The position numbers and the translations under genes are program-made. 64,000 nucleotides of DNA from Pagrus major. Taxonomy: Eukaryota > Chordata > Actinopteri > Spariformes > Sparidae. Shown here one piece after another: positions 8,930 to 43,000 of this stretch. The stretch's first letter is position 1, and every line of letters starts with the position of its first letter. Location of the stretch: the NCBI RefSeq assembly GCF_040436345.1, contig NC_133232.1:28397315-28461314 (forward strand). The letters run 5' to 3'. The notes below the pieces were generated by a model that saw only the letters and a program-made list of their open reading frames with translations, was not told where the DNA came from and did not search any database.

Positions 8930-10182
8930 ATGGGCCAGTCACAGGTTAAGAAATGATCACTGAGTCAGAATAATAAATCGTCTTCTTCCACTTCTTTGTC
9001 TTCTCTGTCTGTGTCATCTTCATCTACTTCTCCTTCATCATCTTCTTTTCAGTTTTCTTACTCTTTTTCTGTCGTCTTCTTCTTTGTCTTTATCTGTGGT
9101 TCATTGTCAATCTCCAAACCAACTTTACATTTGCACTCTGCCATCTACTGCATGTGTAGATGCTGCACTTGTTCAGTCAATGGAGGCAATTCAGCTCAAT
9201 GTTATCTGCTTTATTTATCAGCTATATGATTTAACTTTAAAGTCTTATATTATCTGTGCTCAAATGTTCTTCAGTTGTTTCCAAACAGTCTGTTACAAAA
9301 TCAAACATGTTTCCTGTATGTTCTAGTCCAAGTCTGATCAGAAACCAAAGCCTGGGGACTTGATTGAGATCTTCCGAGGTGTCTATGAGCACTGGGCTGT
9401 GTATGTTGGTAATGGCTGGGTTGTTCACGTGACATCGCCACCAGGTGGTGAGTCCCCTGTCTGGACTGCTGCTCTCTGATACGGACCTGTCCTAGTCTGG
9501 AATAATATCAGCCTACTGTCACTGTAACATTTACAGACCAGATTATCAAATTAGATTGTTTGTTTGAACTGATTCATGATTAATAAACCATGAAAACAAA
9601 CATGTTGCAATATTTAGTTCATAATCCTGCTCAAATTCTTTCTGTTTCTCTCTTTTTGTTCATAGCTAAAGAATCAGGTGCAGTTTCCAAAAGCTTGATG
9701 TCTGTCTCAACTGAGAAGGCCATGGTGAGGAAACAGAAGCTGCAGGAGGTGGTGGGAGACAGCAAATGGACAATCAACAACAGCCTGGACAAGATGTACG
9801 AGTCCCGCTCACCTTGCATCATTGTGGAGGAGGCGCTCAGGCAGGTGGGCAAGAGGATGAAGTACTCCGTCATCAGCAAGAACTGTGAGCACTTTGCAAC
9901 AAAGCTGCGCTACGGGAAAGCTAAGTCCTGGCAGGTCAGTGGACCCATTTTTTACAAACAGGACTCTTTGTCTGATTATTTGGTTTTTAAAACTCTATAT
10001 TTCCCAGAGTTGTGAATGATTTTAAAGGACTTTAGATTGTCAAGAAAACTCTGCTCATCATCTAACTTAAAGATGTTTGTTGCTCTCCACAGGTGGTCCA
10101 GGCATCATTTATTCCTGTAGTGGGCGCTATCGTAGATGCAGTAGATCTCCTCCATCTCCTCTCCGGTCAAAAGACAGACTGA
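8930..10182 (+). CDS. PLAAT/HRASLS-like phospholipase-acyltransferase, copy 3 (4 exons, 164 aa)
   Basis: Predicted exons are 8930-8944 (MGQSQ), 9327-9447, 9666-9934 and 10093-10182, giving 164 aa. All three catalytic blocks are present: EHWAVYVGN with the first His, VVHV with the second, and SKNCEHFATKLRYG with the Cys. Exon 4 is shorter than in copies 1 and 2. It reads as a modest hydrophobic run (ASFIPVVGAIV) interrupted by Asp residues and ending GQKTD, so the membrane anchor may be weaker or changed. This copy arose with copy 1 by the 8,174-bp duplication, and the two differ mainly in exon 4. Poly(A) signal at 10647-10652. Confidence 0.83.
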
Positions 10183-13077: not shown

Positions 13078-13147
13078 GAAGAGATGACTTTATATTTGCC
13101 ATTTGTGCTCAGACCACAGTTTAGTTCAGACACATCTCTTTGTCGCA

Positions 13148-16100
13148 ATGGAACGTACACAGAATAACAGAAAGCAAGGTAGGAGAGGAAGAAAAAGAAA
13201 TAAGGAAGATAGTTCACAGGAGAAGAAAGTAGGAATAACTGGAGCTACAGCAGCTTTGTTTTCCCATTATGGACACTTGCTCTGTGATGAACCTGAAGAG
13301 GAGGCTGAAGTGCGGACTTCTCCCAGCAAGTCCTCTCAAGACACATCGCAGGAGATGAATGAGTTGAAGAATCTGAAGTTAGAGGAGATCGAGGATCTGA
13401 AACCACAGCTCCAAGCAGTCCTTGAGACGCTGCACAACACTCAGACTGACCTTGCGCGGCAGATTTCCAACAGCAAGGACATTCAGTTTGGATTGGAGAA
13501 AGTGAAGGCCGAGAATGCAGGCGATAAAAAGGAAGAGGACATTAAATTAGAAGTCCATGCTGAAAGAGAAGAGCTTGAGACTTGTACAAAAGCCAAACAA
13601 CTGGAGGCCGATCTTGTATTTGAGAGGGCTCAAGTTCAGATGCTGGCCAAGACAGAGGAAACAGCTTGGAAGATTGTAGAAATATCCCAGGCTTCCCTAA
13701 AAGCCCAGCTTGAGGAGCACAGAGAGGAGACCAGGAAGATCACATCTGATCTCATTATGGCTGGTTTGAATGAAGTCAAGCAACAGTTGCAAATCTATCT
13801 TATGCAGTGGCAGGGGGGAAAGACATCCCTCATTCAGGCCACAGAAGGCTTCAAGAAGACTGTGCAGGATGTGCAACAGGAAGCAAAGGAGGCTTTGGAA
13901 AGATCTCAGGCTTCCCATCAAGCCCAACTTGAGGAGCACAGAGAGGAGACCAGAAAGATCACATCTGCCCTGAAAAAGGCAGAGGATCTGCTGGAGACTG
14001 AGCAGCTCTGCTGGCAGCAAGAGAAAACCTCCCTGCTGGAAAAGGCAGATGCCCTGAAAAAGGCAGAGGATCTGCTGGAGACTGAGAACCTCTGCTGGCA
14101 GCAAGAAAAAACCTCCCTGCTGGAGGAGATGGAGAAATCCAGAGCTCTCTATGAGGATCAGCTGGATGAGCAGAAACATGAGAACTGCACCCTCGAGGAT
14201 GCTCTGAGGAATGTTGAGCAGAAGCTGGAAAGTCATCAGGTGGAGTGGCAGGAGGAAAAGACATCCCTCATTCAGGCCACAGAAGGCTTCAAGAAGACTG
14301 TGCAGGATGTGCAGCAGGAAGCAAAGGAGGCTTTGGAAAGATCTCAGGCTTCCCATCAAGCCCAACTTGAGGAGCACAGAGAGGAGACCAGAAAGATCAC
14401 ATCTGCCCTGAAAAAGGCAGAGGATCTGCTGGAGACTGAGCACCTCTGCTGGCAGCAAGAGAAAACCTCCCTGCTGGAAAAGGCAGATGCCCTGAAAAAG
14501 GCAGAGGATCTGCTGGAGACTGAGCACCTCTGCTGGCAGCAAGAAAAAAACTCCCTGCTGGAGGAGATGGAGAAATCCAGAGCTCACTATGAGGATCAGC
14601 TGGATGAGGCTTTGGAAAGATCTCAGGCTTCCCATCAAGCCCAGCTTGAGGAGTACAGAGAGGAGACCAGAAAGATCACATCTGCCCTGAAAAAGGCAGA
14701 GGATCTGCTGGAGACTGAGCACCTTTGCTGGCAGCAAGAGAAAACCTCCCTGCTGGAGGAGACGGAGAAATCCAGAGCTCACTATGAGGATCAGCTGGAT
14801 GAGCAGAAACACGAGAACAGCACCCTTGTGGCTGCACTGAGGAATGTTGAACAGAAGCTGGAGAGTCATCAGGTGGAGTGGCAGGAGGAAAAGACATCCC
14901 TCATTCAGGCCACAGAAGGCTTCAAGAAAACTGTGCAGGATATGCAACAGGAAGCAAAGGAGGCTTTGGAAAGATCTCAGGCTTCCCATCAAGCCCAGCT
15001 TGAGGAGCACAGAGAGGAGACCAGAAAGATCACATCTGCCCTGAAAAAGGCAGAGGATCTGCTGGAGACTGAGCACCTCTGCTGGCAGCAAGAAAAAACC
15101 TCCCTGCTGGAGGAGATGGAGAAATCCAGAGCTCACTATGAGGATCAGCTGGATGAGCAGAAACATGAGAACAGCACCCTCGTGGCTGCTCTGAGGAATG
15201 TTGAACAGAAGCTGGAGAGTCATCAGGTGGAGTGGCAGGAGCAAAAGACATCCCTCATTCAGGCCACAGAAGGCTTCAAGAAGACTGTGCAGGATGTGCA
15301 GCAGGAAGCAAAGGAGGCTTTGGAAAGATCTCAGGCTTCCCATCAAGCCCAGCTTGAGGAGCACAGAGAGGAGACCAGAAAGATCACATCTGCCCTGAAA
15401 AAGGCAGAGGATCTGCTGGAGACTGAGCAGCTCTGCTGGCAGCAAGAGAAAACCTCCATGCTGGAAAAGGCAGATGCCCTGAAAAAGGCAGAGGATCTGC
15501 TGGAGACTGAGCACCTCTGCTGGCAGCAAGAAAAAACCTCCCTGCTGGAGGAGATGGAGAAATCCAGAGCTCACTATGAGGATCAGCTGGATGAGGCTTT
15601 GGAAAGATCTCAGGCTTCCCATCAAGCCCAGCTTGAGGAGCACAGAGAGGAGACCAGAAAGATCACATCTGCCCTGAAAGAGGCAGAAGATCTGCTGGAG
15701 ACTGAGCACCTCTGCTGGCAGCAAGAGAAAACCTCCCTGCTGGAGGAGAAGGAGAAATCCAGAGCTCACTATGAGGATCAGCTGGATGAGCAGAAACACG
15801 AGAACAGCACCCTTGTGGCTGCACTGAGGAATGTTGAACAGAAGCTGGAGAGTCATCAGGTGGAGTGGCAGGAGGAAAAGACATCCCTCATTCAGGCCAC
15901 AGAAGGCTTCAAGAAAACTGTGCAGGATATGCAACAGGAAGCAAAGGAGGCTTTGGAAAGATCTCAGGCTTCCCATCAAGCCCAGCTTGAGAAGCACAGA
16001 GAGGAGACCAGAGAGATCACATCTGCCCTGAAAAAGGCAGAGGATCTGCTGGAGACTGAGCAGCTCTGCTGGCAGCAAGAGAAAACCTCCATGCTGGAAA

Positions 16101-18796: not shown

Positions 18797-18866
18797 GTAG
18801 ATCCATGCTCAGTAACCAAGATCGACTGAAACACATGCACTTGTTCTCCCTGAGCTACAACTGTTT

Positions 18867-21197
18867 TTCTCCGGGTGCTCCGGTTAACCAACTTTAATTG
18901 AAGAAATAATTCTTCAATTAAAAAAAAAACTTGAAATAGTTCAGGCTTGTAAAACTGACCCTGCTCCTCACAAATATACAAGAACAAGTGCACGTACACA
19001 CCCAGCTGTCCGAGGAGAGGGGATCTCTCTCTGAATTGCCTTTCCCGAGGTTTCTTCCTGTGTCCTTTCAAGGTTGTTCTGAGGTTCATGTTGAATTGTT
19101 CATTGTCTTCTTAGAGAGCTTGGGCTGGGTACCTGTTCCTGATCTGGATCTGCAAGGCCCACTGTCACACTGGTTTTCTCCTGGTGCTCCGGTTAACCAA
19201 CTTTAATTGAAGAAATAATTCTTCAATTAAAAAAAAAAAACTTGAAATAGTTCAGGTGTGTAAAACTGACCCTGCTCCTCACAAATATACAAGAACAAGT
19301 GCACGTACACACCCAGCTGTCCGAGGAGAGGGGATCTCTCTCTGAATTGCCTTTCCCGAGGTTTCTTCCTGTCTCCTTTCAAGGTTGTTCTGAGGTTCAT
19401 GTTGAATTGTTCATTGTCTTCTTAGAGAGCTTGGGCTGGGTACCTGTTCCTGATCTGGATCTGCAAGGCCCACTGTCACACTGGTTTTCTCCCGGTGCTC
19501 CGGTTAACCAACTTTAATTGAAGAAATAATTCTTCAATTAAAAAAAAAAAACTTGAAATAGTTCAGGTGTGTAAAACTGACCCTGCTCCTCACAAATATA
19601 CAAGAACAAGTGCACGTACACACCCAGCTGTCCGAGGAGAGGGGATCTCTCTCTGAATTGCCTTTCCCGAGGTTTCTTCCTGTCTCCTTTCAAGGTTGTT
19701 CTGAGGTTCATGTTGAATTGTTCATTGTCTTCTTAGAGAGCTTGGGCTGGGTACCTGTTCCTGATCTGGATCTGCAAGGCCCACTGTCACACTGGTTTTC
19801 TCCTGGTGCTCCGGTTAACCAACTTTAATTGAAGAAATAATTCTTCAATTAAAAAAAAAAAACTTGAAATAGTTCAGGTGTGTAAAACTGACCCTGCTCC
19901 TCACAAATATACAAGAACAAGTGCACGTACACACCCAGCTGTCCGAGGAGAGGGGATCTCTCTCTGAATTGCCTTTCCCGAGGTTTCTTCCTGTGTCCTT
20001 TCAAGGTTGTTCTGAGGTTCATGTTGAATTGTTCATTGTCTTCTTAGAGAGCTTGGGCTGGGTACCTGTTCCTGATCTGGATCTGCAAGGCCCACTGTCA
20101 CACTGGTTTTCTCCCGGTGCTCCGGTTAACCAACTTTAATTGAAGAAATAATTCTTCAATTAAAAAAAAAAAACTTGAAATAGTTCAGGTGTGTAAAACT
20201 GACCCTGCTCCTCACAAATATACAAGAACAAGTGCACGTACACACCCAGCTGTCCGAGGAGAGGGGATCTCTCTCTGAATTGCCTTTCCCGAGGTTTCTT
20301 CCTGTCTCCTTTCAAGGTTGTTCTGAGGTTCATGTTGAATTGTTCATTGTCTTCTTAGAGAGCTTGGGCTGGGTACCTGTTCCTGATCTGGATCTGCAAG
20401 GCCCACTGTCACACTGGTTTTCTCCCGGTGCTCCGGTTAACCAACTTTAATTGAAGAAATAATTCTTCAATTAAAAAAAAAAACTTGAAATAGTTCAGGT
20501 GTGTAAAACTGACCCTGCTCCTCACAAATATACAAGAACAAGTGCACGTACACACCCAGCTGTCCGAGGAGAGGGGATCTCTCTCTGAATTGCCTTTCCC
20601 GAGGTTTCTTCCTGTCTCCTTTCAAGGTTGTTCTGAGGTTCATGTTGAATTGTTCATTGTCTTCTTAGAGAGCTTGGGCTGGGTACCTGTTCCTGATCTG
20701 GATCTGCAAGGCCCACTGTCACACTGGTTTTCTCCCGGTGCTCCGGTTAACCAACTTTAATTGAAGAAATAATTCTTCAATTAAAAAAAAAAAACTTGAA
20801 ATAGTTCAGGCGTGTAAAACTGACCCTGCTCCTCACAAATATACAAGAACAAGTGCACGTACACACCCAGCTGTCCGAGGAGAGGGGATCTCTCTCTGAA
20901 TTGCCTTTCCCGAGGTTTCTTCCTGTCTCCTTTCAAGGTTGTTCTGAGGTTCATGTTGAATTGTTCATTGTCTTCTTAGAGAGCTTGGGCTGGGTACCTG
21001 TTCCTGATCTGGATCTGCAAGGCCCACTGTCACACTGGTTTTCTCCTGGTGCTCCGGTTAACCAACTTTAATTGAAGAAATAATTCTTCAATTAAAAAAA
21101 AAAAGTTGAATTAGTTCAGACGTGTAAAACTGACCCTGCTCCTCACAAATATACAAGAACAAATGCGCGTACACACCCAGCCGTCCGAGGAGAGCAT
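18867..21197 (+). repeat. About 311-bp satellite, seven full copies plus partial ends
   Basis: Units start at about 311-bp steps (for example GTGCACGTACACACCCAGCT near 18990, 19300, 19611, 19922, 20233, 20543, 20854), with a degenerate partial copy after 21,160. Copies are almost identical and differ mainly at two sites (CCTGTGTCC or CCTGTCTCC; TCCCGG or TCCTGG) and in the length of an A run. Each unit has the near-palindrome AATTGAAGAA-4 nt-TTCTTCAATT followed by 10-12 A. The first, partial unit starts about 70 bases after the stop codon of the coiled-coil ORF, so the array grew from that gene's 3' flank. Each unit holds the same 72-codon open frame, a by-product of repetition. Confidence 0.9.
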
Positions 21198-23010: not shown

Positions 23011-24058
23011 ATGAACCAGTCACAGGTTAGGAAATTATCACTGAGTAGGAACACTTAATCGTCTTCTTCCACTTCTTCTTCTTCTTTGTCTGTTTCTTCT
23101 TCTTAGTTTTCGTCTTCATCTGTTTATTCTTCGCCTGCTTCTTCTCTGTCTCCTTCTCCGTCTTTGTCTTCTTTGTCATCTTCTTCCTCATCTGCTTTGT
23201 CGTCTTCTTCTTCTTCATCGTCTTCTTTATCTTTATCGTCTTTGTAGTCTTGTTCTTCGTCTTCTTCATCTTCTTCGTTGTGGTCTTTTGTCTTCTTCTC
23301 CGTCTTTTTCTTCTTCTTCATCATTTTCTTTGTCATCTGCGTCGTCTTCTTCTCGTCTTTTTCATTCTTCCCTCATTCATCTTTGTCTTTATCTGTGGTT
23401 CATTGGCAGTCTACAAACCAACTTAAAGTTGGATACTTAACCCAGGTTATGTCAGAGAGTTCTCAAATGTACTTCAGTTGTTTCCAAACAGTCTGTTGCA
23501 AAGTCAAACCTTTTTCCTGTATGTTCAAATCAAAGTCTGATGAGAAACCAAAGCCTGGGGACTTGATTGAGATCTTCAGGGGCCTCTATGAGCACTGGGC
23601 TGTGGACATTGGTGATGGCTGGGTTGTTCACTTGGCACCACCCTGTGAGTCTCTCGACACAACTTGGATTGCTTGTTTGGATAAACCGATTCATAATTAA
23701 TAAACCACAAATATGTCGCCATAATTAGTGTACAATGTGCAAATTATGTCCCTTCTTTGTCTTTCTTCTGTCATCTTTTTAATTCATCGCTGACGTCGCT
23801 GGTGCTGGGGCCAAAAGTGTGATGTCGGTCGCAGCTCAGAGGGCCATGGTGAAGGGACAGACACTAAGTGATGTGGTGGGAACCGACAAGTGGAAAGTCA
23901 ACAAAGACCTGGATGAGAAGTACGAGCCCCACACAACTGATACCATTGTGAAGGAGGCGCTTGAGTTGGTGGGCACCGAGCAGCCGTACGACATCATGAC
24001 ACAGAACTGTGAGCACTTTGCAAAGAAGCTGCGATACGGAAAAGCTGAGTCCTGGCAG
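23011..24058 (+). pseudogene. PLAAT/HRASLS-like copy 4, damaged splice site and no last exon
   Basis: Exon 1 (23011-23025, MNQSQ) and exon 2 (23536-23644) are intact and encode [18 protein letters not shown] and VVHLAPP. The exon-3 body, about 23790-24058, carries NCEHFAKKLRYG with the catalytic Cys, so the enzyme core is conserved and closest to PLAAT3. However, the exon-3 acceptor that is AG in the other copies is CG at 23788-23789. The next AG (23816-23817) would put a stop at once in frame. No exon 4 like those of copies 1-3 is visible downstream. Reading through after the last Gln gives a tail with a short hydrophobic part (FVFYIKETFLGLWW) before a stop. I judge it a decaying gene, though a noncanonical acceptor or unseen exons cannot be excluded. 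Confidence 0.65.
23041..23400 (+). repeat. Pyrimidine-rich trinucleotide run in PLAAT intron 1
   Basis: Long stretch of TTC/TCT/TCG-type triplets in intron 1 of copy 4. Shorter versions occupy intron 1 of copies 1 to 3 (about 800-930, 4435-4555, 8980-9100). It gives long low-complexity frames (Ser-rich on +, Lys-rich on -) that are not genes. Confidence 0.8.
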
Positions 24059-27653: not shown

Positions 27654-30600
27654 TCAGTCCAGCTTGCGTGCACCCAGTTTGAGAGGACCTTTAGCAGCTT
27701 TGCGCTCTGCCCGTTTCGCCTCCAGCTCTTTCCTCCTCTCGTCCCGTTTCTTCTTGGACAGCTCGGCCTTGCTGAGACCTGAATGACAATACAGGCAGTT
27801 CAGTCAGATAGTTAATGGTTGTCTAACAAGAATACTTGCGCATTAGTGTAAATACAGTTCAGGCGGAAGATCGTACACAGAAGATTGGTCTTTATTTTAT
27901 GCCAGAGTAAAATCCTTTTCACACTGGACACAACACCCACTAACACCCACTACCCTCTGGCTGTTGTCAGTGGGAAAGGATACAATCAGCATTCAATCTT
28001 GTGTCAAATGACTCTGTAAATGGAAACACGTGCTGGAAGCACAATGCCACTACGTGCATTTAAGTTCCCGTCATTGGTATATAAGTACTTTTACATCCGT
28101 CTCTGTTCAAGCAGTGCACGAATGCCGGTCAGTAGTTGTCGAGTTCGTGAGCGACTGAAGTAAAACATTTTTAAATGACATCGGTAACATTGTCACTGGC
28201 CTCCATGCTGCTCTTTATGATTCCCTGTTTTCCTGTGTGCTTATGACATCTAATGTGACACAACAGAAAAAACACACAAACAAACAAACAAAAACAACCG
28301 CACCAGTTGAATGTCTCCGGCACCAGCCAGGATTACTGTTCCAGAGCTGTGGTGCTGAATAATGACCAGAAATTTTTTTGCAGAAAATGTTGATGTCAAA
28401 GAGCATTTAACCTCTGATCTTATGGATATAATGCCATAATTTCATCGTTTTATCATATTAGGCATTTGTGTGTTAAATCTGATTGGAATTATTGTATGAA
28501 TTCTTGAGTTGTAGCCAAAACTGTGTTTTGTGAGGCCACAGTGACCTTGACCTCTGGCCACCAAAATCTAGGTTCTTGAGATATCGCATTTACAAGAATG
28601 GGACATACGGAGGGATGGACAACTGGAAAACATAAAAACTGGCAATGGAAAAGTAAAAAAGATATTTTTAGCAGGTGTATCCACAAAAAACCCCTGCATA
28701 TACGCCAAATGTTGATGTAAATATCGTATTAGAGTAAATGTGAGATGCACCATCTGTCTGCAGCTCATTCTGAGCAAATAAAGGTTCATATTTGTGATAA
28801 GAGGACCAACTGAGACTTACCCTGGTTTCCATCCACTGACTCCCAGCTCTCCTCAGCTCCCCAGTCTCCTGTTGCCTCTGCACTCCAACCATCTCCAGCC
28901 TGACGAGGAGAAAACACAACATGCACCACTTTTAATTCAATTTAAAGGAATTGTATTTTACATTTTGTTAAATAAGTTTATTCTGTAAGATATAATCTGT
29001 ATATGCATAAGCTTCAAGATGCTGGTAAACAAAGCCAGGGTAGCTGTTTGCCCATTTCCAGCTTTTATGCTAAGCTAAGCTAACTTCCTGCTGGTTCTAG
29101 CTTCACATTTACCATACAAAACATGAGAGTGGTGTTGATCTTGTCTAACTATGAGCAAGAAAACTTACTTCCAAGAAGTCAAACTATTCATTTTTAACAG
29201 GTGGTTCATTCTTTATGCTCAGTGTCCCTTAACCTTTATCGTCATCTAACAGATTCTGTTTAATATCGTCTTGCGTTGTTTTCACAGGCAAACTACTTGA
29301 AAAAAAAAAAGAAAGCCTCAATGAAAAGATCTGTCAACACCAATGTCTCCCACCTCCTTTATCTCTCTACCTCCATTTGCAAATCTAACGATTACATGAA
29401 GTTAGTTACATAAATGCAGACTTGCAACACTTAAAACCTGGAAAAACAATTAATAATGATGCAGAATGTTTTCTATCATTAGCGTTTTGCATTCAGGGTT
29501 CACATCGTCAAATATTTCAAACCTAATTGAGACTAATCTGTCTTTTTCGCCTCGCTCCGTCCTCACCGTGGTTGCAGCAGTACCGCTTGTGTTTCTCTGG
29601 GAGACGCTCGCAAACAGATCATTCTGACCAGCCCCCTTGGCTGCGCTGCTGCTGTCCCAGTTGTAATCGCTGGCTAGCCGCACCCCATCGGGCAGCTGGA
29701 CCGTCGTATTGGTCAGTGTTATGTCGTTTTCCTCCTCCCCCCAGTCATTGCCCCAGCCCTCCTCGCCTGCAGAGCTCTGACCCTGCCCTTCCTTCTCGTT
29801 GGACCAGCTGTCGTCGGCGTCCCAGCCTGAGCTGCTCCAGTCAGAGCTCTGCTTTTTCACAGCTGTCGACCGCCCCATCTAGATATCGGAGAGATGATAA
29901 CCGATTAACAAAGGCACTAAGTGAAATAATACAAAAAGATCAAATAAAGAACTTTGACTTTGACTGTTTAGGTTCTTTTTTCTCCACACAGAAAACAAAT
30001 GTCATCGTAAATTTAAATGGTGCCGAAAATTTGCTTGCTTTCATTTGCTTTCAATACTATACACAGGTTTAGGTATGTATGGAAAGGTATCAAGCCTGTA
30101 CAATAAACTAGTAGTATAAGGTGCTGTCAGGGGTAATATTTACATTTACATAAGGTAATATTGTATATTGGATCCAAATGAAAGGGCTCATACTCCTTTG
30201 TCACTGGCCTTCTTTTTGGATGGTGCCATTCCTGACCAGTCAGTGCTCCAGTCATCTGGCTCAGTTTGAGTTTTATCTGGCTCCTATATGAGAAACAGTT
30301 TGTAATTTATGACATTTTAAAATACAATGATGTGACATAATCTCACGCATGTATCACAATAATGATTACTCAGTTTTTCTTGTTAGTCAACAGTTGAAAC
30401 CCTACCTCCAAACTTCCCCAGTCCTCCTCCTCGTCCCAGCGGTCTCCCATCGCCTCTTCATCATTGTCCTTAACTTCGAGAGTGTGTGATTGGTTGGCAC
30501 GACTAGAGGCAGCATGGTGAGTCAATGAGGCTTGTGGAGTTTTATCTTCAGAACCTGTAACAGAAAATAAAAAACAAAGAAAAGGTTTCAGGTGGCATAT

Positions 30601-32573
30601 TTAAGATTTCTTAAAGCGGAATTCCACCGATTGAAGTGTGCTTTACGTCTTTGAGGGTGCTGATAAATTGCCTCGAGGGTTATCACTTGAATCAACAATG
30701 TTTGGGTCTGAAGAAGTTTGGTAATCAAATAAAATCTGGCAATGTGGAGTGAGAAAGAAGTGAGCTCCTCTTCTCTGCTCGAGGAAAGCAGCTAGATGCT
30801 ACATTAGTCGCTACTAACATACACAGCCCCAATTCTCATATCAAACTCAGATCAGCAAAGTTGCATTTTGGGTAATGTAGGCTCCAGGTTTTGACAAGGA
30901 AGAAGAACATTTGGAATAAAAAAAAGACGACATGTCTGGTTCTCCTGCTGTATTAATTTCTATCCTCTTAAGAAACTGCTCAGTGCAGCAGTGTTACAGG
31001 ACAAATCGAGTGTGATATAACCCTACCAGGTGCAGGTGCTTCGTCAGTGGCACTGGTAGGGCTGGTGTCGTTGGCGGGCCCGCTGTCTTCCGCTGCTGCT
31101 CCGCCTTCTGTCCCTGGAGCGTTGCGGATCAGCTTAGATGTTAGCGAGGACATGCCAGTCACGGCCCAGCCTGCCCAGCTGGAAGAGGCACCTGCAGGCT
31201 GAGCACATGACCCTACGTCCTTTTCTGCAGGAGGGACAGGAGAGCAAATTTCAAGTTTTTAGTTGGAGAAAATCAGAAATATAATTTTAAGAACTGTTTC
31301 TATTTAGTCTGCTCCAGATAAAGGAGTAAATCACAAAAGTATTTGTTTTCTTTTCCCCAGAAATCACAGGTTTTCTTGCCGAGTGAGACATAAAAGTAGA
31401 GAGCAGACTTTGCAGCTCAGTGCAGCGTCACATACCGACATCAGCCAGCTTGGTGGGATCTTCTGACACAGTCTCCAGCTTGGAAAGGAAACTCTTGATG
31501 GCTTTGAATGCCTGACACGCAGAGAGAAAGGTGGGAGAGAACATCCCGAGCAGAAATACATCAGCATATTCCAGCGACGACAAGAGGTTAAACATCAGTG
31601 AGGAAGGTTGAATTCATAAGCTAGAGAGGGATGATTACTGTTGGGGGTAACATTACACTACTGTATCTACTACTATGTTACTCTTGTGTGTTCTTCGGCT
31701 CTTGTAATTAGCTAGAATCCAGCCCTGTCTTTTTTTTCTATTACCTTTACTATAGGAACACAGTAATTAAAAATGAATGAGGCTTGTTGCTACTGATAAA
31801 AACAATCTAAATACTCTTGATTATACATTAAACATTGAGCAAGGCAGAGGAAATCAGTTTTATCTTCAGTTATAATTTCGCCATCATGTAGTGACAAGTC
31901 ACGTGTACCTGGTCTCGGACGCTCTTATCGGGGTCAACTGTAATGGCACAGAGCGTGGGCAGGATGCGGGCGGCGATCTCTGTAATGCTGTAGTAGTTGT
32001 GTGTGGCGGCGAAGCCCAGAACACCAGCGGAGCGTGAAGCTGGGAAGGGGTCTTTTGTGGCTCGTGAGAAGGCAGAAATCAGAACACGTTGTCGAGTCTG
32101 TGAAGAAAAGGATAACCAACATCTTCTCCGAACTTTGTTTTCAGTGTTTTCTGCATTAAATGAATGTTGTGAGTGTATTTTACCCCGGCGTTGAGGTAGG
32201 AGGCGATCTTGCCCAGGCAGACGGTGGTGTTGCACCGGATAGGGCCTTGTTCGTCTCTGGCCTGCAGCCGGGCGAAGTGACGCATCAGCTCCTGGTTCAG
32301 GTTGGTCTCGTTCAGCTTGGGAGCCAGCAGCAACATAGACTGGAGGGGGAGAAACAGAGAAGAGTTACAGCTACAGCGGGCCGACAACATCCTGTGCGCA
32401 AGTAAAAATGTATATAATACATCTGCTGGTTTGTGGTTGCGTTTAAATAAGTGAACTACCTTAACAGTCTGTTCTCTGATGGCGGGGTTGGTGTCTGTGA
32501 AGCCGTGAACGACGTGAGGGAAAATCTGGGAGTTGACTGCTGCCTCATTCAGATACTGAATGAACTGCTCCAT

Positions 32574-32619
<46 letters not shown>

Positions 32620-35600
32620 GAGAGTGAGAGAGAGACATGGAACGAGAGAAGAAACAATGTTACAACAAACAAATGCTTCTATACATCGACACAGATCTAA
32701 AAACGACAAGTAGAGATATCATTTCCTGCTAATTATTCTTTGAAATCATCCAAGTTTTAACTTTGTTCCTTTCTTGCTGGGTGGTAAATGAGAAAATTAA
32801 ATACATACACAAAAAAAGCCTCACATACCTGCTGCAGCAGTCGTATCCTCATGGCTCTGTCTGTGGAGGAAAACATCTTGACGATAACAGGGATGATCTT
32901 CTGTTGGTACTCTTCTGCTGACAGGAACTTCCCCACCTGGCAGACAGACAGAGGGAGATGAGATCAGGGAAATTTTTTGTATTAAGCACTTTTGTACTAA
33001 GATATTGATACCAGTATAACCATGTCCTACTTTTAATTTGTTTTGAAAAAGGGTTATGATTTGCTTTAAAAGTGATCAGGGATGCTTGGAGATGTTGCAG
33101 TCTACCGTCTGATGTTTAATAAGGTTTTAAAGTTGTGCTGGGAGGTTTGGACTCACCTTGAACAGCGGTGTGAGGACTACGGCACCTGCATTACCAAACT
33201 CGAAGGCGGTGAGCAGCTGAGGCAGGACTTTGTGTTTACAGAAGTCTTCTGGGAAAGAGTCCAGATTGTCACTCAGATCCTGGAAGAACTGCTGCTTCTC
33301 AGCTGGCTCTTTGATCTGGAGAGAAAGTTAGAATTATTATTACTGTAATTAAAATCTATCAAACTATCCTTAATTGTTATACTGTTATACAGTTTCCAGT
33401 GGGACAGGATAGTTCCATTAGAACTTGATCTATTTCTATCTTGATACTCTTGGTTGTGGCTTTACTGGTCAAGTTTGACTTTACCACTAATAAAACCACA
33501 ACTGATGTGATGATACAGGTGTGTCTTTATGCTGACCTGTATCTCCTCCAGGAAAAGGTTGCTCTCCACAAAGCTGTTGCTGAGGAATCCCCCGGGGGCT
33601 CTACAGTTCTGGAGAAAGCGGGCCGGGTTGGGCCGAGCTCGGGGATTAGCCCCCACCAGCTCACAGTAATGCGGAACCAGGCCCTTGGGAATCTGTGGGC
33701 ACAAAGAGGACACACGTGAGAGAACACAACTCTGTGAACGTCCCGTCCCGCTCTCATTCAATTTGACAACTAGCTTTTTCTTTACATGACCCAAATGCCA
33801 TACATAAAATACAAAAAAACAGAATAATCTCAATATTTCTATTTTATCTGAGATCATCACAACACTTCAATAACTAAAACGACAATCTGAAATATCTTTA
33901 GAATATTGAAATAGAATCGACAAAGGATCTGTCCAGGTGTTGTACCTTTCCCAGTGAGCGAAGGGAGGACGTGCGAGGTAGCGGCCCGTTGAACACCTCC
34001 CAGATCAGGCAGCCTAGCCGCCACACCTCCCCGGCCCTGCAACAAACATACACAGACTTCAACACAAAAGTTCCTAAACTTGCAGTAACCAAGACCAGCT
34101 TAAACATTACATCAACACTTTACTCAGGTGTCTTAATTCCTATTATGAACCCCTTCATTCTGCCACTTCTGCACATATTCTTACTGCTGCTCCCCTTTTC
34201 TTCCTGTATAACATATTGTTATAATTATGACTTGCTTCTCTCAGTTTATGTTTTTTTGCATCCCTCTCTTACCATTTCTCTCCACTGCTATTGGACATCT
34301 CTGGTGGGTCATATTTCTCCATGTCTGGGTAAACAGCCTTCGGAGCAGGGAGCGAGACCCCGCTTGGGTCACCCTGCTCTGGGACCACATGGTCGAGGCC
34401 GCCGAGCTTCCACTCCCCAGCACGATCCACAAAAACAGACCACATGCCCAAGTTGTTATGGAGCAGGTGGCAGTCGTTGACCAGGAAACTCAGAGCTTTC
34501 TGTGGGAGGAGGCGAACATCAGGAGTGGAGTAAGCGCTCACAGAGGACAGGTGACAGAACAATGGCTCTCCTCTTAGTATCAGATGGCTCCTATCCTTAC
34601 CACGATCTGGTGCAGTCCCCAGGAGACCTCCAGCTCCCCTGATCCACCCTTCTCTGCCTGGGCCTTCAGGTGGACTGCCAGAGGTGTCACCTGCTCAGTA
34701 ACCAGGTACAGGCTCTTCTCTGTCTGCGAAAACAACCACATTTAAAAGCAATTATTACTTTATGTGTATGGAACCATTGTGTATGTTTCATTGAACAATC
34801 TCTCTGGCTGAATGAAAAGGGTTAAACAAATATCACAATAACAGTACTAGTACTAGTTACTAGTACTCAGTTGTTTATTATTCTAACAACTATCTATTCT
34901 ATTAAAAGGCAAAACATGTAAATGTTGGATTATAACCCAGAGCTGCTAAACTAGAGCAAGTGAAACACAGCACAGCCTTGTACACACAGTAACATCTAAA
35001 AGGGATTCATGGTGGGTATTATACTAAGATAATGAGATTTGAAACTTCCCAGCTGCTGCTCAATCTCGGGCAGTATTATGAGTGGTAAGCGTCTTCAGAT
35101 TATAAATATGCAACTAACAAACACGGACAAGGAGGAAGACATAGTCTCCCTGGCCAGTAATCAACTGTCAAATTTCTCTTGATGTTTTTGATTCTCAGTT
35201 CATTCTTTTGGCAAAAAATGTAATAGATGCATCACTTAGAATTGAAACAGTAACAATAGTAGACCACCACTGTTGTACTTTTTACTCCACTAAATGTATT
35301 TGATAACTTTAGTTACTAGTTTCTTTGTAGATTGCAGGCTGCATCAGAGCCAAAGCAATGCATTTTTTAATTGATGTGTTTTATCCACAATTGGATGAAA
35401 AAATACTGATTCTGTGACCAAATAAATGCTGTTTATCAGATCCCATAATTGGCCGGGTTGATAACGCCAACACTAAGTATACAGTTTACACATGTATTTT
35501 TAATGTACTTTTACTTGTACTTTTGATATTTAAGTGCATTTATTGCCAGAAAATTACTTTTAATACTTAAGTACATGTCATATCAGATACTTAATGACTT

Positions 35601-37215
35601 TAACTCAAGTACTATTTGTATTGGTGACTTTCACAACACTGATATGTTGACAGATATGTGCCCATATGAAAACTTTTTTCTCTTTTTAACAGAACATATT
35701 TGCAAAAAAAGATCCTTGGGTTAAATTATAACTATTAAATTCCCAGCGAGGGTTTTTGTTTCAGTGTACTGATGTCATCTGGGACAATAAAGTGTTTGAC
35801 AACCAAAATTGAGAGATCATTGCAGAAGCATGTGTGTTTCTGTTTATATTCTGATAGCTGATAAATCGATACTGGAATTCTGTTTACTTCCTATTATCGG
35901 TATCGACATCGGCCACAAAAACCCTGTATCAAGCTGTACTATCATTTAAAGTCCAACTAACTGAACTAATAGTTGGGATACTTTCTGATCTTGTTGAGCC
36001 TGACTAAACTGAGAAAGCATTGTGAGGATCTGCTTACATTACATAGCACACTACTCACCACATATTTTGCACAAGTATTACAGATCTACTGTGACATATT
36101 CACACTCACCTCTATCTGAACGCAAACATGCAGAGAAAAGCAGATGGTGGTGATGAGACACTAATTACATGTTAGTCACAGAAGAAAACTCTCACTAATC
36201 TACAACATGTCATCGAGCAAGCCGAGTGACATTTTCCTCTCAACATTACCAACAATGGCACTGTGTGTGGAGCTACAGATGGGTGCACTCATACTAACAC
36301 ATACCTCCAATCCATCAACATAAGCCAGGATGTTAGGGTGACGCAGGGTCTTCATCCGCTTGAAGGCAGCCTTGGCCAGCTGGGTCTGCTGCTCCGTCCC
36401 CTGTGCTACCTCGTACACAAACACCGACACCGGCTCTCCGTTGGTCTGAGGAGACAGGTTGGGGTGAAACGAATCTTCAACCATTACCATGTGAAACATT
36501 TATGCTGTGAAATCACATCAAATAAATAACAATCGCAACCACGGCGTCATATGTAAAGAAATGACAATAAACATGATGAAGGAGGAGGCTTGGTTGTTAT
36601 TATCCGGCCCTGCAGTGATGATGATGATGATGATGACAGTTCAGATTGAGCTGCTCAGCGATAATAATCAGGACAGTTAGTTATGTGAGGAGCTGTAAGT
36701 GTTAAAGAACTGGACCTGTATTAATGTCGTGAAGCATTAGCCTGACAACGATTATGAAAACAGTTGTTAACGAAGCTAAAATGAGGTGACGTGGCGAGAA
36801 ATACGTGTCTCGGAGTAAACAAAGCCTGAGCTCACCTTGTTAGCAAAACCTAACGAGACGTAAAGCACCTAGAATAAAAGTAATGAGCGCTGACATTGAA
36901 TCAGCGAGAAAGACGTGGATTACACTGATAGATTGGATATGAAACCACGCCATTAAAAACACCGGACGTCGTGTTTATAGGCTAAAACAAAGTCGCGAGC
37001 AGACAGTAACTAGCTAGCTAGCTAGCCGGCTAACTGACAGGCCTCCATAACGAAGCGGGCTAACGTGAACTGTTAGCGGGGGATCGGCAGCGGTCTGCCG
37101 CTTTTACCTTCCGCTTCCCTCGATGTAGAGTCCATATTCCAGACTTTTCTTGGGTGTCTGGAAGAAGTTCATAAGCAAAGTCTTTGACAGGATCCCTGGC
37201 AAAAAAGGACCACAT
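27654..37215 (-). CDS. scyl1: SCYL1, N-terminal kinase-like protein (pseudokinase), 18 coding exons
   Basis: Exons, 5' to 3' on the minus strand: 37215-37108, 36445-36305, 34723-34601, 34499-34273, 34036-33946, 33692-33537, 33315-33157, 32936-32829, 32573-32460, 32339-32184, 32097-31909, 31511-31436, 31224-31027, 30554-30406, 30283-30194, 29848-29567, 28899-28821, 27778-27654. Frames join to about 856 aa, slightly longer than the 808-aa human protein. The N-terminus [10 protein letters not shown], the pseudokinase lobe (about 1-310), HEAT-type repeats (about 330-540), the Trp/Asp/Ser-rich linker and the basic C-terminal helix ending RKLD all match SCYL1. As in the family, the kinase is dead: the DFG position reads GLD in WKLGGLD and the HRD position reads HNN. 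The RKLD end is the COPI-binding signal used in Golgi-ER traffic. Exon 15 uses a GTATGA donor. The start has upstream CpG-containing 5' sequence. Confidence 0.96.
32575..32636. repeat. AG/CT dinucleotide repeat in a SCYL1 intron
   Basis: AG repeat directly beside the exon-9 acceptor. On the gene's strand it forms a long CT pyrimidine tract and could affect acceptor strength. Confidence 0.85.
35254..35645. repeat. Dispersed repeat family R2, copy in a SCYL1 intron
   Basis: Shares TACTTTTTACTCCACTA, ATTTGATAACTTTAGTTACT and GCCAGAAAATTACTTTTAAT with copies at 50455-50935, 56785-57250 and 62772-63450. About 450 bp when complete. No ORF. A common non-autonomous DNA-transposon-like repeat of fish, family name not assigned. 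Confidence 0.65.
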
Positions 37216-39867
37216 CTCCTCTTTCCTCCACACCTCATCAAACACACACACAGCAGCGACTGCAGAAGTGCACAGACTGCTACAAGGAGCTAACTAGCTA
37301 GCATATGGCACGGATGTAAAACGGCTCCGTGTAAAACTTTGTTTCTGCACATTCGTTCCGCCATAGTTTTTATTTTTTATTGTTTCAGATAATATTTTAT
37401 TGTTTCATAGTGAACCCGACGTATAAGACAAAAAGATAACATAAATTGACAGTAACACCACCAAATTCATCCCAATCCAATCAACCCAGACAACAATCAC
37501 AACACTACAGATAAACACAAACAAACAGCAGGTTCAGTCAATGTTCTGTAACAAAATCATAAACAAGATAAAAGATCACCCTGATGCTAAAACAAAGCTC
37601 AGGAAAACAAAAAAGAGAATGCTAAGGTAGATGCCCCCTTTCATAATTAATTAGTATTATTGCTGATCACAGCATGTTTATAGTGTGTATTTTATACCGA
37701 TATTCATTAACTTCATTGGCCTTTCTGAGGGAAGAATTATAAGTATTTAATTGTACCACATATATCCTGAAGGGGGCTCAGACTCAATCCTTCAAGATAA
37801 TATATATTTTCTTGCAGGTGACAAACGTTTCCCCAAAAGTTTAAACTTATATTTAGGTGTAATGTCCCCTGGTTAACATCAAGAAGAAAACAGGATGGAT
37901 GAACATTAATATTCTGATGGAAATTAAGTTAAAAACCATCCCTGAAAGATTAGATTATATGACAAGACCAAAACAATGGGAGAAGTATGAGTATGTAACT
38001 TAAAGTTTTTTAACAAAGGAGAGACCTGGGAGTTTCAAAATATTAAACTATGTTTCATGTAGCCGCGATAGCTTCATTTTCAGTCCAGCTCTTACCCATA
38101 TCAAATTTATTCTAGATTATATTTATCTTACTTAAGTTCCTCTTCATGTAAAGGCAGTCTAGGAGATGTTATACTTAAAAATTCTGTCCAAGCCTCTTTT
38201 TGTGAGTCACAACATAATCTTGAGAAGCAAAGCAGAAGTATTTCCTTTAGAAATAGGATTTTAATTTTATCTGGGGATATGCACCACCAGACCAGCATAT
38301 CTCAAATGATCAGGGCTTCTGGGCAGGTCATGCATATCTGTCTTGTGCAGCTGTATTGTACAGAAACCAGGCCATAATTATAAATGGTAAATTTGTGTTT
38401 CACCAAATTGTCACAAACGGGGAGTCAAATATGGGTTAATCCAGGTGTACTGGACTTAGATGCCCAGGACAGGCTTGTCCTCCCCCATAGTTCTCCTGCT
38501 GTACCCAAATCACAAGTGTCAATAAAGTGAACTCTTTGTTTCTTTACGAGAGGATGTTTGTCAGGAGGATGTCTCCATAAGGCATAATGCTATTTCAGCC
38601 TGTGTCAGGCCTTGATTGAAAAGATATGTGACGCGGTGATCGATATGCTCCTGCTCCTCTGACATTGCTACACTGAATGATGTTTCCTGCAATGATTTAA
38701 TAGACTACGCTATAGTTTTGTTTTCTCAAGAGCTTGAATGAATTATATTGTTATCTCGGGAAAACAAAGTTTCGTTATCTCGAGATCTTGAGAAAAGTAT
38801 CCTGTTATCTCGGGAAAACGGCAGTTATTATTTCGAGATAATAACTTGAGATCTCGAGAAAACAAATGAAACAGGATATACAATCTATGAATGCATGGCC
38901 CTTTAGGGCTTCCGTAGATTTTGGCTCAGCGACCCATCCTGGTATTTGTCCCGTTTATCTTTCATTCATCATTCAGATATGTCAGATATCGTCATGAAAA
39001 TGTCCAAATGATGTCACAGATATGTCCTCCATGGGATAGGTGTACTGGAGATTATAACATGACAACCAGAACAAAGTTAAAGGACACATGTGACAGTTTT
39101 AACAAATAGCCTGTCTTTACTTGATGCTTAGATCAACACTCCAGTTAGATGAATCAGATGTTACGTTTGCAAACATTGACAATTCATTCTTAATTTTTAC
39201 ATTGCATGGTTGATACTGTACCTTATAGTTTAAGATCTTTGATACCACGAGATAACGTTATTACCTTTATCACATTGATACTCACCAAATTATTGATACC
39301 AAAAGGCCTATAATTACTATTAGTATATGGATTTATTGATATTTAGACCACATTTTATTCAGGACTCATGTTTCAACTGGAAAAAATAAGCAGTATTATG
39401 GGAGAATGAATTGTCACATTTCAAGTCAGGGTAACAGAATGGCAGAAACAGTTTTATTGATCATTTAAACATTCACAGATGTAAACATGATTTGCTTTAA
39501 ATCGCTTTTCAAAAACAATTCACACAAGAAAACGTTAATACATTTCAAAAAAAGACCATTGCTTGTAACCGTTTTATCTCTTGTCAAATGAATTGTCACT
39601 GTTGTAGATAATGGACCTCGAGGCTCTAGCAGTTACCTAATGTCTTAAAATGCATTGCAATTATGCACATGCTAGCTCAACATTCCCACTATGAACTTTA
39701 GGCTCAATTTATCCAATTTTAATGTATGACGACTTTAGCCCTGTAGCTAGAGAATCATTTTTAAATACATAAATGGGTCGTAAAAGCCATATTTTATCTA
39801 ATATTACAACCTGGAATGGTTCTTTAATGACATAAGTTTTCCCCACGCAGCATACTAAAAAAAGCAA
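37216..39867. other. SCYL1 promoter side and MALAT1-SCYL1 spacer
   Basis: 37216-37380 is the likely SCYL1 5' UTR and promoter; the TAGC repeat at about 37010-37025 lies in its first intron. 37380-38700 looks like old, unassignable repeat sequence. 38735-38880 has several palindromic TTATCTCGAGAT-like units. No protein gene is supported. Confidence 0.45.
38735..38880. repeat. Palindromic TTATCTCGAG repeat cluster
   Basis: Multiple direct and inverted copies of GTTATCTCGRGA separated by AAAAC-type spacers, able to fold on themselves. It resembles the core of a small foldback DNA element; I cannot assign a family. Confidence 0.5.
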
Positions 39868-39925
39868 GACACCGCAGGGGATTGAACCCTGTCCCGACAA
39901 AGTCAGGAGTGCCACCACCGGAGTC
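39868..39925 (-). ncRNA. mascRNA, the tRNA-like small RNA of MALAT1
   Basis: On the minus strand the 58 nt start GACTCCGGTGGTGGCACTCC and end CTGCGGTGTC. The ends pair as a 7-bp acceptor-type stem with one U-U mismatch. A short arm pairs CTGAC with GTCGG around TTT. A T-arm pairs CAGGG with CCCTG around the 7-nt loop TTCAATC. This is the mascRNA fold, with GGCACTCCTG and the T-arm matching mammalian mascRNA. In mammals RNase P cuts at its 5' end to create the mature 3' end of MALAT1, RNase Z cuts its 3' end and CCA is added. It is not an ordinary tRNA: the anticodon and D arms are too small. Confidence 0.95.
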
Positions 39926-40007
39926 TTTTGCTTTTTTGTTGTTGCTGTAATAAAGGGCAAAAGCAAAACATGGAGGAACAAAAATTTGTTCCTCCAGGAA
40001 AAGAAAA
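39926..40007 (-). ncRNA. MALAT1 3' triple-helix element (ENE plus A-rich tract)
   Basis: In minus-strand order: U-rich motif 1 TTTTCTTTT (40007-39999), hairpin arms GGAGGAACA and TGTTCCTCC (39995-39972), U-rich motif 2 TTTTGCTTTT (39968-39959), a spacer, and the A-rich tract AAAAAAGCAAAA (39937-39926), which abuts the mascRNA. In MALAT1 the A tract lies in the major groove of the U-rich stem as a bipartite triple helix that protects the non-polyadenylated end from decay. The central C-G interruption is matched in both U motif 2 and the A tract, as in mammals. Confidence 0.95.
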
Positions 40008-43000
40008 CCCCTAAACACCTGGCTGCTATATTATCCTGTCACCACATGGGGATTTCTCTTGGTCACGAGGCTGAAACTAGAAGAAAGAGACAACCGTTTC
40101 CCCATTCCCCAGCATTTCCCCACGACACTGTATTGGCAAATATGACTGATTCCACGAAATCCTTTTGATCCATATTAACAAGACCACGATACCAGCATCC
40201 CTGGTGATACTCAAAGCCGTTTCCCCTTTGCAATTCGGCAGGACTTGCACGGCAAAATGGACAGTCAAGGCTTTGTCGCCAAATTTAAAGCTGTAACGGA
40301 AGAAAGACAGACAATGTAAGCCTCCCCACCCCCCTCCCACATAAACCCAACAAACCAATACTCATCCAATGACAAATGATGTCAATATGGTTATCGTTTA
40401 CCGCGACTGGCGTAGCAGCGTTTACCAAGGCTATTCTTCAGGAGCGATGCTCAATTCTTCAAAGAAATTAAGACTGTACCCTAGAGGTTGGCTGTACCAA
40501 GTGATCCCATGACTTCCTGCAGAGGTTTAAGTCCCCTGGCTCAGTTTCAAGTTAAGCTGAACGAGAAATCTGAAAGGAAGAAAGAAGAGCGTTGCCCCAC
40601 CCCAATAATCCCCTGACCAAATACTACTGCAATGTTTGACAACGACTTCATGAACATTATGTCGTGTATTACAAATAAATGTTATGCAGAGCTGATGTGC
40701 ATGCAACATGTTTGAGTTACACATTAAAGCCATGGTATGTTAAAGAAAAATCAAGGGAACCGAAATTACTTAACTTAGCACCCATGAGACTGAAGTGATG
40801 CAGTATTAGCGAGACAAGCTTGCAGCTCTTGATCTTAATGTGACTGGATTCTCAGTGTTCCATCACAGGTTAGGCCATCCCAGATGACAAATTAAGACAA
40901 TTTTTAGGTAATTTGACCTGAGAAACCAAAAGGGAAAAAGAAAAAAGGCACACACACAAACACAGAGAGCGGGGCTTCTGCGAAGGACGTCGGGGGTTCA
41001 GATTTAAGCTCAAGCGCACAGGGGGTTGGTACTTCATTCAGGGGCCACACTCATATTCGCTGACAGCCTCCACAGATGGCTTTGCATTCAGAGGCAGGCG
41101 AGATCGGGAGCGGACAGACGAGAATGATCTGAAACAAAGAGTGATCTACACAACACACCCACCACACAATACTCAAAAGATTCGAGTTCTACTCATCTTA
41201 TGGTTTAAGATGCAAAGCAATAGGGCCCCATGGCCAAAGAGGAATATGCTAGTAAAGCATTGTTGTTACTGATGATTTGAGGTTAACATAAAGCCAGTTC
41301 CAAGATGTCATTTTGTCAACTACAACATTGCAGAAGTTCATTTTGACAAGTTAAGCCAACATCTTACTACATGCTCCAGGTTAGAAGACTTCACTCGTGC
41401 TTGAACCAGTCTTGCACTCTGATGTCTGTGAAGAGAAGTATAGGGATACACCCAACCAAAACACAATAGAAGCTAAAGCAACACATTTGCGCTGCATTGA
41501 AGACCAAATTAAAGCCGCACCATGCACAGCTTTCCTCAGCTACTCAAAATTTGGAAACTTCGCACAGTTGCACGATGGAGAAATTTTATGTGACAAACCT
41601 GCCACCTGCACAGTTGCACAAGGGCTAGCAGCTGAGGGCTAATTGTTGTAATCTATACACATCAAAAACGACCTGACTCCACTTGTTCAAACTGCGTGTT
41701 GATTTCAAAGGGGAGGATGATTCCCGTGTTGTCCTAGGTAGACTGCGTTCTTCCTTTGGACTGTTCTGAAAGATCAAAGAGGCAGAAAAGAAACACCCCT
41801 ATGCCCCCTCACAGTATCATAGAACTGACTATTGTTATCCTTACCCAAATGCTTTACTGCAGATAACGTCAGAATCAATGAAGGTCCATCAAATCTTCCC
41901 GTTATCACAAGACTCTTGTTAAGAAAGCACAGCAGTGCTATTTCTACAGTCAAGTATAGCAAGTTGCTTTCATTTCAAGAACAATGAGGGCAGGTAAGCC
42001 CATTCAAGATAAGTGACCCCTCTAGGGTGGAGAAATTTCTACTTTCCAACATCAATATTTGATGGATTCAACTTATCTGCCTTCAAATTTCCGCTTTGAA
42101 AAGGATGTCATTCGAGCGAAGGTCACATCCGTGCTCTACAAAGCTCCAAGCTTTAGTCATACCTGAAAAAGCACAAGAAAAGCTCCCCCACACAAGCCCC
42201 CAAAAAGAACAAATGCATACCAAAACTGTATTCAATCACAACAAGCTATGCATTTATTATGCAATAAGAAAATCCTTTACAGATAGTTCACTCATTGTAT
42301 TGTCAATACAAGGCATGGTAACTAATTGCAAAGGAATTGCAATGGGAGGCATTTAGCCAGACAATGAATGTTAAAGAGAAATGTGACATTTAGTGACCTT
42401 ACGTGATGCTCGATGCGCAAGGAAACTTGTACATACAATGAGTTAGAAGAGTTCCTGATGGTCTCGGGTATTGGAAAGCGCACAGGACACAGCACACTGA
42501 AAAAATGCAAAGGAAAAGCCTCTCTCCCCACAATACCCCTCCAATATTGCAATACACAGAACTACAAGATAATAATGGCATTACATACTGCCTTAGGATA
42601 CAACTGTATGACTATTAATACAATTCATTAAAGTATTGAAGCCATTTTCCAGAAGAAGCATTTAAATACCGGAAACCTGACCGCGGGGGATTCCATCCGT
42701 ATGAACAGTAGACGTGGGCTTGAATGTAGATTTTTGAACCATGGGCCATACAACTTAATCTGCAAGAGTGACAAATACACAGCCCACTCCCAACCCCACA
42801 AAGCAACTTTTGGAAGCCTTTACAGAATTACAATAACTTCTAGTAAAGAGACTTGTTACCACACTCCCTGGGAAAACAGAGCTTCTTGCTACATCGGGGG
42901 ACTAGTTTGGAAGTTCCTATCCTGCGAGGAAAAGTGTCCACTTGAAGCTTGTTGGTGCACTTGGATGCTGCCTATTCAAGCCATTTTGCGTTGGGTAACA

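Follow-up and report, generated by a model that had tools for sequence, protein, structure and literature searches.

On the minus strand of the window (the whole 64-kb stretch of DNA that was analysed), we found a full 3'-end module of the MALAT1 type at positions 39868-40007, each part of which could be located to the base, in agreement with the first-pass annotation (Table 1). Two U-rich motifs, the hairpin between them, an A-rich tract with its GC and a 58-nt tRNA-like RNA were all found in the sequence, and the tRNA-like RNA begins at the base right after the A-rich tract. The acceptor-type stem has, as had also been claimed, a U-U mismatch, which lies at pair 4 (39922/39871) and is flagged in the Rfam alignment; apart from this difference the module is ordinary, sharing with the vertebrate MALAT1 3' end the order and kind of all parts as well as the SCYL1 neighbour.

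Table 1. Parts of the MALAT1 3' module and the neighbouring SCYL1 exons in the window, with the basis of each assignment.
Feature	Positions	Strand	Basis
SCYL1 exons, neighbour anchoring MALAT1 orthology	29450..36499	-	open frames; presumed identity; one exon matches 3vwa
mascRNA, 58-nt tRNA-like RNA	39868..39925	-	RF01684 70.7 bits, full model; cloverleaf-like minimum-energy fold
A-rich tract AAAAAAGCAAAA, predicted mature MALAT1 3' end	39926..39937	-	sequence; pattern with U-rich motif 2
Linker	39938..39954	-	sequence
Basal stem P1, 3' side (GCCC)	39955..39958	-	sequence; paired in minimum-energy fold
U-rich motif 2 TTTTGCTTTT, Watson-Crick strand	39959..39968	-	sequence
Apical hairpin P2 CCTGGAGGAACAAATTTTTGTTCCTCCATG	39969..39998	-	sequence; 11 consecutive pairs in fold
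U-rich motif 1 TTTTCTTTT, Hoogsteen strand	39999..40007	-	sequence
Basal stem P1, 5' side (GGGG), opposite GCCC	40008..40011	-	sequence; paired in minimum-energy fold

An Rfam scan matched the tRNA-like RNA to the mascRNA/menRNA model RF01684 with 70.7 bits, spanning the full 56 positions of the model (gathering score 42.5; E = 8.8e-13 for 64 kb and both strands), the sole match in the window above any gathering score. Of the covariance models that had been named as a check, this one matched, whereas the triple-helix family did not: a permissive Rfam scan of 39800-40100 gave three extra matches, all far under gathering and none to a triple-helix family. The pattern of U-rich motif 2 and A-rich tract occurred once in the 64-kb window and in none of 100 shuffled sequences, and the predicted fold of the 151-nt module gave a z of -2.96, with 2 of 200 shuffles equal or better. 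For the tRNA-like part alone the folding energy was not significant (z -1.47; 19/200 shuffles), so the case for it is carried by the covariance score. ARAGORN, run with the bacterial code, called no tRNA in the window.

The minus-strand frames from 36499 to 29450 we take to be SCYL1 exons, recognised by their resemblance to the human sequence. When compared with solved structures, one exon matched 3vwa, 'Cytoplasmic export protein 1' (E = 1.8e-6), presumably yeast Cex1, a relative of SCYL1; a second matched just two designed-looking chains at about 1e-4, giving no support for SCYL1, a third had no match, and two exons compared with Pfam had none either. The first recognised exon ends at 36499, about 3.4 kb beyond the tRNA-like RNA, and the 3' end of the module points toward the SCYL1 5' end on the same strand, the synteny that marks a MALAT1 ortholog. 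Since MALAT1 upstream of SCYL1 on the same strand is the published gene order in ray-finned fish, the arrangement fits the proposal that the DNA came from a fish, and the parts, the RF01684 score and the same-strand SCYL1 agree on the identification as MALAT1. The evidence thus supports reading the feature as the 3' end of a MALAT1 lncRNA, which adds one more ortholog to an RNA already known. The view that the site is remarkable in itself was not supported; because MALAT1 has already been reported from jawed fish, the site by itself is ordinary.

Elsewhere in the window, four plus-strand frames (1441-1860, 5054-5461, 9587-10015 and 23248-23700) encode LRAT domains (PF04970, E = 4e-12 to 3e-21) and presumably form an HRASLS-like gene cluster; they are preceded by similar serine-rich low-complexity frames at 728, 4361, 8957 and 23045. 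A plus-strand open frame of 1,902 codons at 13088-18796 consists of repeated coiled-coil-like units with periods of 84, 354 and 438 bases and had no match above the cut-off in Pfam. Just past its end begins a 311-base tandem repeat (18860-21194; 7.5 copies, 98% matches), successive units of which contain a nearly identical 88-codon open frame; this repeat may have expanded recently or may be an artefact of assembly.

The assembly from which the window comes (786 Mb, 25 contigs) was searched with RF01684, and at least 31 matches were found, at least 29 of them above the cut-off, these counts being lower bounds from the best 68 of 78,628 first-look candidates scored. Besides MALAT1, which had the highest score among the scored candidates (70.7 bits), they comprise at least 30 dispersed copies on 11 numbered contigs, of which 28 of 30 scored above 42.5 bits (for example, 63.5, 63.0 and 53.9 bits at loci L033, L034 and L050). 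A script recovered both stem arms, a loop of 115-225 nt, and U-rich motif 2 and the A-rich tract ahead of the tRNA-like RNA in 28 of the 30; the parts of the dispersed copies are arranged as in MALAT1, except that a long apical loop stands where MALAT1 has a small one. Both stem arms were not recovered in L025 and L027, and U-rich motif 1 is lost in L018. An exact scan of the 786 Mb for U-rich motif 2, a linker of 5-30 nt, the A-rich tract and G gave 26 matches, namely MALAT1 and 25 dispersed RF01684 places, with none outside RF01684 places, and the reversed pattern used as a control gave 3 matches. The RF01684 places that lack the exact pattern were L014, L025, L027, L029 and L030.

Ten-kb loci were examined around 20 of the copies. 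An upstream open frame stops 503-910 nt before the tRNA-like RNA and is longer than 1,900 codons in 13 of these loci, being broken in the other seven. For one copy, the joining of two contiguous stretches gave a frame of 2,751 codons, 2,145 codons of which carry OTU, DUF6570, Helitron_like_N (1.8e-31), PIF1 (1.2e-23) and Exo_endo_phos (3.1e-9); Helitron_like_N, PIF1 and Exo_endo_phos lie in a single frame in L034 and L033. From this predicted domain set, the transposon beside the dispersed modules is assigned to the Helentrons (rolling-circle DNA transposons), because it matches the description, in the accessible part of PMC4067079, of elements known in fish that encode a Rep/helicase with a fused C-terminal endonuclease and an OTU protease. 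The same Rep/helicase-endonuclease fusion and OTU are found here, but the OTU here shares the Rep/helicase frame, and no MALAT1-like 3' module is described in that part of the source.

A search with the last 210 codons of the frame found at least 49 places, the counts being lower bounds from the best 150 of 406 candidates scored. The 32 places that were at least 55% identical were merged by neighbourhood into 28 loci of one Helentron family. An RF01684 match follows the endonuclease match by 449-831 nt on the same strand in 26 of the 28 family loci found; the two without a module are fragments, and frames of at least 2,700 codons are open in 16 family loci. By contrast, none of 17 more distant Helentron places (29-34% identical) had an RF01684 match within 3 kb when their coordinates were compared with the RF01684 list (best 68 of 78,628 candidates scored), and the exact whole-genome pattern scan gave no match near any of the 17. 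Four 1.5-kb 3' flanks of these distant elements (L053-L056, two per group) lacked both a U-rich-2 motif and any RF01684 match with an E of 1 or less. The L055 flank contains the string AAAAGCAAA; its match to a miRNA family (30.5 bits vs a gathering score of 70) was taken as chance. No upstream endonuclease match was found for the dispersed copies at C5:27888328, C24:13122560 and C22:2171633, and C5:1272361 is a partial tandem copy of the module, 390 nt behind another.

Several of these loci have features of their own. A DDE transposase frame (DDE_Tnp_4, 2.8e-29), which we take to be PIF/Harbinger-like, lies inside Helentron copies at 767-1690 of L048 and at the matching place in L045; the two copies lie on different contigs and share 99% identity over 8.5 kb, and this is a transposon within a transposon, copied together. 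Within the Helentron frame of L033, a 54-base tandem repeat (438-884; 8.3 copies) encodes a basic 18-residue repeat, seen in the L034 protein, the copy number of which seems variable among copies. In L025 and L027 (around 984-1081, different contigs) U-rich motif 2 and the A-rich tract have decayed, and the similarity of L025 to the Helentron loci is limited to some 75-121 nt in the 3' part of the module; these two may represent another element family carrying the tRNA-like RNA.

With blastn, the A-rich tract and tRNA-like part of MALAT1 aligned to all 20 ten-kb loci at 75-81% identity over 74-88 nt (best E = 6e-11), the alignment being confined to these two parts. Common descent is therefore likelier than convergence, and the MALAT1 and Helentron modules are probably related. 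Over 15 distinct dispersed copies, the tRNA-like part shared 38-45 identical residues of 58-60 columns with that of MALAT1; with this degree of identity, and with blastn similarity of 75-81% only over the A-rich and tRNA-like parts, a recent capture from the genome's own MALAT1 is unlikely, and an old or foreign capture of the MALAT1 end by the Helentron is possible. When a 264-nt piece of L034 that runs from U-rich motif 1 through the A-rich tract and stops short of the tRNA-like RNA was used to search the genome, 30 matches were found, MALAT1 not among them, which is weak evidence, the query being mostly loop. In viral contigs we found neither a match to the A-rich/tRNA-like pattern nor a relative of the endonuclease part; matches of a degenerate pattern in 13 prokaryotic contigs were regarded as chance, because Rfam finds no mascRNA in those contigs.

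Conservation of the module was assessed in the 16 loci with intact frames, 14 of which are distinct at the module, since two pairs are identical there. U-rich motif 2 is TTTTGCTTT in 16 of 16, the A-rich tract is AAAAAGCAAAA in 15 of 16, and the tRNA-like RNA starts with GG directly after the A-rich tract in all 16. U-rich motif 1 varies, being TTTCGTTT in seven loci, TTTTGTTT in five, TTTTCTTT in three and TTTTGTTC in one; the C for a C+.G-C triple is present in 10 of 16 and absent from the six with TTTTGTTT or TTTTGTTC, and an extra G follows it in the seven with TTTCGTTT. For 12 of the 16 intact-frame copies (66 pairs), the mean dN and dS of the frame were 0.044 and 0.177, and divergence was 0.031 for the module core and 0.024 for the tRNA-like part vs 0.106 for loop and linker. 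Against the divergent L050 (530 codons compared), dN was 0.225 with dS saturated at about 3, and the corresponding values were 0.134 for the core, 0.089 for the tRNA-like part and 0.533 for loop and linker; because the frame of L050 is broken, its recent changes are not under selection. In an alignment of the 30 dispersed copies, main copies (all but the divergent or damaged L020, L025 and L027-L031) were compared with old ones (L020, L028 and L029), gaps being counted. Mean identity was 0.996 for the A-rich tract, 0.963 for U-rich motif 2, 0.810 and 0.871 for the P2 arms, 0.861 for the tRNA-like part, and 0.848 for the 3' side of P1, but 0.656 for U-rich motif 1 and 0.577 for the 5' side of P1; it was 0.509 for the linker, 0.335 for the loop and 0.298 upstream; the first 60 nt downstream gave 0.573 and the next 140 nt 0.257. 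On these sequence comparisons, the Helentron module is conserved where synonymous sites are saturated, whereas the loop and linker are not.

The predicted pairing was examined in 23 of the 30 copies (L009, L012, L018, L023, L025, L027 and L031, which are near-duplicate, damaged or not locatable, being excluded): 96.8% of pair cells were standard vs 37-55% when the structure was slid, a comparison that favours the structure because it was taken from one aligned copy. One pair of P1 changes from A-U to C-G in two copies and is unpaired in four of 23, and one pair of P2 changes from G-C to A-U in two copies and is likewise unpaired in four of 23. The number of pairs changed on both sides was reached by 150 of 500 shuffles, and the covariation score by 6 of 500. 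Among 16 distinct tRNA-like parts, including that of MALAT1 (16 of 31, the distinct ones except the truncated L031), two pairs change on both sides, a count reached by 5 of 500 shuffles. Covariation is present but thin, and the weight of the argument falls on position and on how differently the parts are conserved. When 317 nt of L004 were folded (z -2.33; 2/100 shuffles), P1, P2 and a cloverleaf were seen; none of four Helentron tRNA-like parts folded was significant by energy (z 0.85 to -1.59), and that of L022 gave no cloverleaf fold. A C-A mismatch interrupts the acceptor stem of L022, L023 and L024, whose frames are all intact, and L025 has lost the first two pairs and the D arm. Among the 13 long-frame loci, nine have AATAAA or ATTAAA in the stretch from the stop codon to the module, so that ordinary upstream polyadenylation is possible there, and four have neither; an AATAAA lies 44 nt after the tRNA-like RNA in six of the 13.

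We consider it likely that the window contains the MALAT1 3' module and that a divergent, related module ends the Helentron mRNA, which would be cut by RNase P, protected by a triple helix and devoid of poly(A). The basis for this is the sequence, the position, the predicted pairing, the conservation and the absence of the pattern from the other Helentron places. The B-box consensus is GGTTCGANTCC, and the T-arm sequence GGTTCGATTCC fits it exactly in L004, L019 and L020 (three of four loci tested; MALAT1 does not), so that the tRNA-like part could be either an internal Pol III promoter or a small RNA gene of its own carried by the Helentron, having nothing to do with how the transposase mRNA ends. 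This reading is very improbable, as it leaves unexplained both the conserved U-rich motif 1, P2, U-rich motif 2 and A-rich parts upstream and the exact junction between A-rich tract and tRNA-like RNA, and ARAGORN gave no tRNA in L001-L008. Somewhat less improbable, though still unlikely, is a functionless passenger, a piece of a MALAT1 gene caught by the Helentron by chance: Helentrons are reported, in the accessible part of PMC4067079, to capture gene fragments, L025 and L027 retain only the tRNA-like part well, and U-rich motif 1 is gone in L018. A passenger, however, should drift like the loop and linker, whereas the core and the tRNA-like part diverge far less, U-rich motif 2 is exact in every intact-frame locus, and the module has been retained between subfamilies with saturated synonymous sites.

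The dispersed copies might also belong to the already described class of MALAT1-like lncRNA loci, with an adjacent Helentron frame that is incidental. This seems quite improbable, because 26 of the 28 loci found for the family have the module on the strand of the frame and at a narrowly limited distance from it, and 16 frames stay open for at least 2,700 codons; that MALAT1-like loci are themselves transposons is a likelier relation than an incidental frame. As for the window, the presence of at least 30 other module copies in the genome raises the question of whether its site is a MALAT1 pseudogene or a transposon copy, which we regard as scarcely credible: the window copy is the top-scoring one among the candidates scored (70.7 bits), has TTTTCTTTT, TTTTGCTTTT and the short hairpin, and adjoins SCYL1 on the expected strand, and tblastn with the Helentron protein gave no match in the window.

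The MALAT1 transcript of the window is predicted to be cleaved by RNase P at 39926/39925; trimming of the tRNA-like RNA by RNase Z would yield mascRNA, and the MALAT1 end would be shielded by a triple helix formed when the A-rich tract docks into the U-rich hairpin. Under the preferred reading of a module that ends the Helentron mRNA, a promoter of the element would drive a transcript through the Rep/helicase/endonuclease frame and then the module, so that the RNA after the stop would consist, in order, of P1, U-rich motif 1, P2 with its apical loop of 115-225 nt, U-rich motif 2, linker, A-rich tract and tRNA-like RNA. Host RNase P would cut ahead of the tRNA-like RNA; the A-rich tract would pair with U-rich motif 2, with U-rich motif 1 in the groove; and this triple helix, not a poly(A) tail, would protect the mRNA and keep it translatable. 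In MALAT1 reporter work of 2012, an mRNA with such an end was reportedly translatable. The predicted Helentron triple helix would have some six U.A-U triples, and one C+.G-C in copies whose U-rich motif 1 has C, fewer U.A-U triples than MALAT1, for which nine U.A-U and one C+.G-C are given in the accessible part of PMC11411715. Transcription through the Helentron module, cutting by RNases P and Z, the triple helix, protection and translation are steps that we infer from sequence.

Among known systems, MALAT1-like loci and their tancRNAs are said to have been described by Zhang (2017), some of them answered by antisense piRNAs, and ENE-bearing transposons reportedly by Tycowski (2016). The menRNA of NEAT1 starts with GG, as do the tRNA-like RNAs of the Helentron copies, and NEAT1 has an end of the RNase P type, which for the Helentron is predicted. 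NEAT1, however, is reported as a tetrapod feature in the accessible part of PMC10869381, whereas the Helentron copies follow a protein gene. The MALAT1-like loci and tancRNAs likewise comprise many dispersed triple-helix and tRNA-like modules per genome, but in the accessible parts of PMC10869381 and PMC12941219 they are lncRNAs, whereas the module found here comes after the transposase frame of a Helentron. ENE-bearing transposons likewise have a triple helix in the 3' UTR of their mRNA, which for the Helentron is predicted; for example, according to the accessible part of PMC12501189, a 3' UTR triple helix of Arabidopsis Copia93/Evade, with the poly(A) tail as third strand, makes the RNA more stable and promotes new insertions. 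The helix of these elements binds poly(A), whereas the A-rich tract of the Helentron is encoded and directly followed by a tRNA-like RNA, and therefore the end would come from RNase P. In the open-access literature searched, we found no report of a MALAT1-type module on a Helentron, although Zhang (2017) may contain part of it; neither Helentron with MALAT1 nor Helitron with RNase P and tRNA-like was found together, and co-mentions of Helitron and MALAT1, with one to four mentions of each, were unrelated by title. The window module is of a known kind, and the transposon-borne module is an apparently undescribed form of that kind.

A broader proposal is that a protein-coding DNA transposon ends its transposase mRNA by tRNA-processing enzymes and a MALAT1-type triple helix, and that the lncRNA MALAT1-like loci of lizards and fish may be Helentron transcripts; we put this forward tentatively, as a possibility against which the balance still leans. 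More speculatively, the MALAT1 3' module could have begun as a transposon end that was later domesticated, or a MALAT1 end taken up by the transposon may have been carried by it from host to host. If true, the Helentron module would provide a natural case of a translated RNA with a MALAT1-type end, would explain the multiplication of such modules in certain genomes, and would link mobile DNA to how the MALAT1 end arose and spread.
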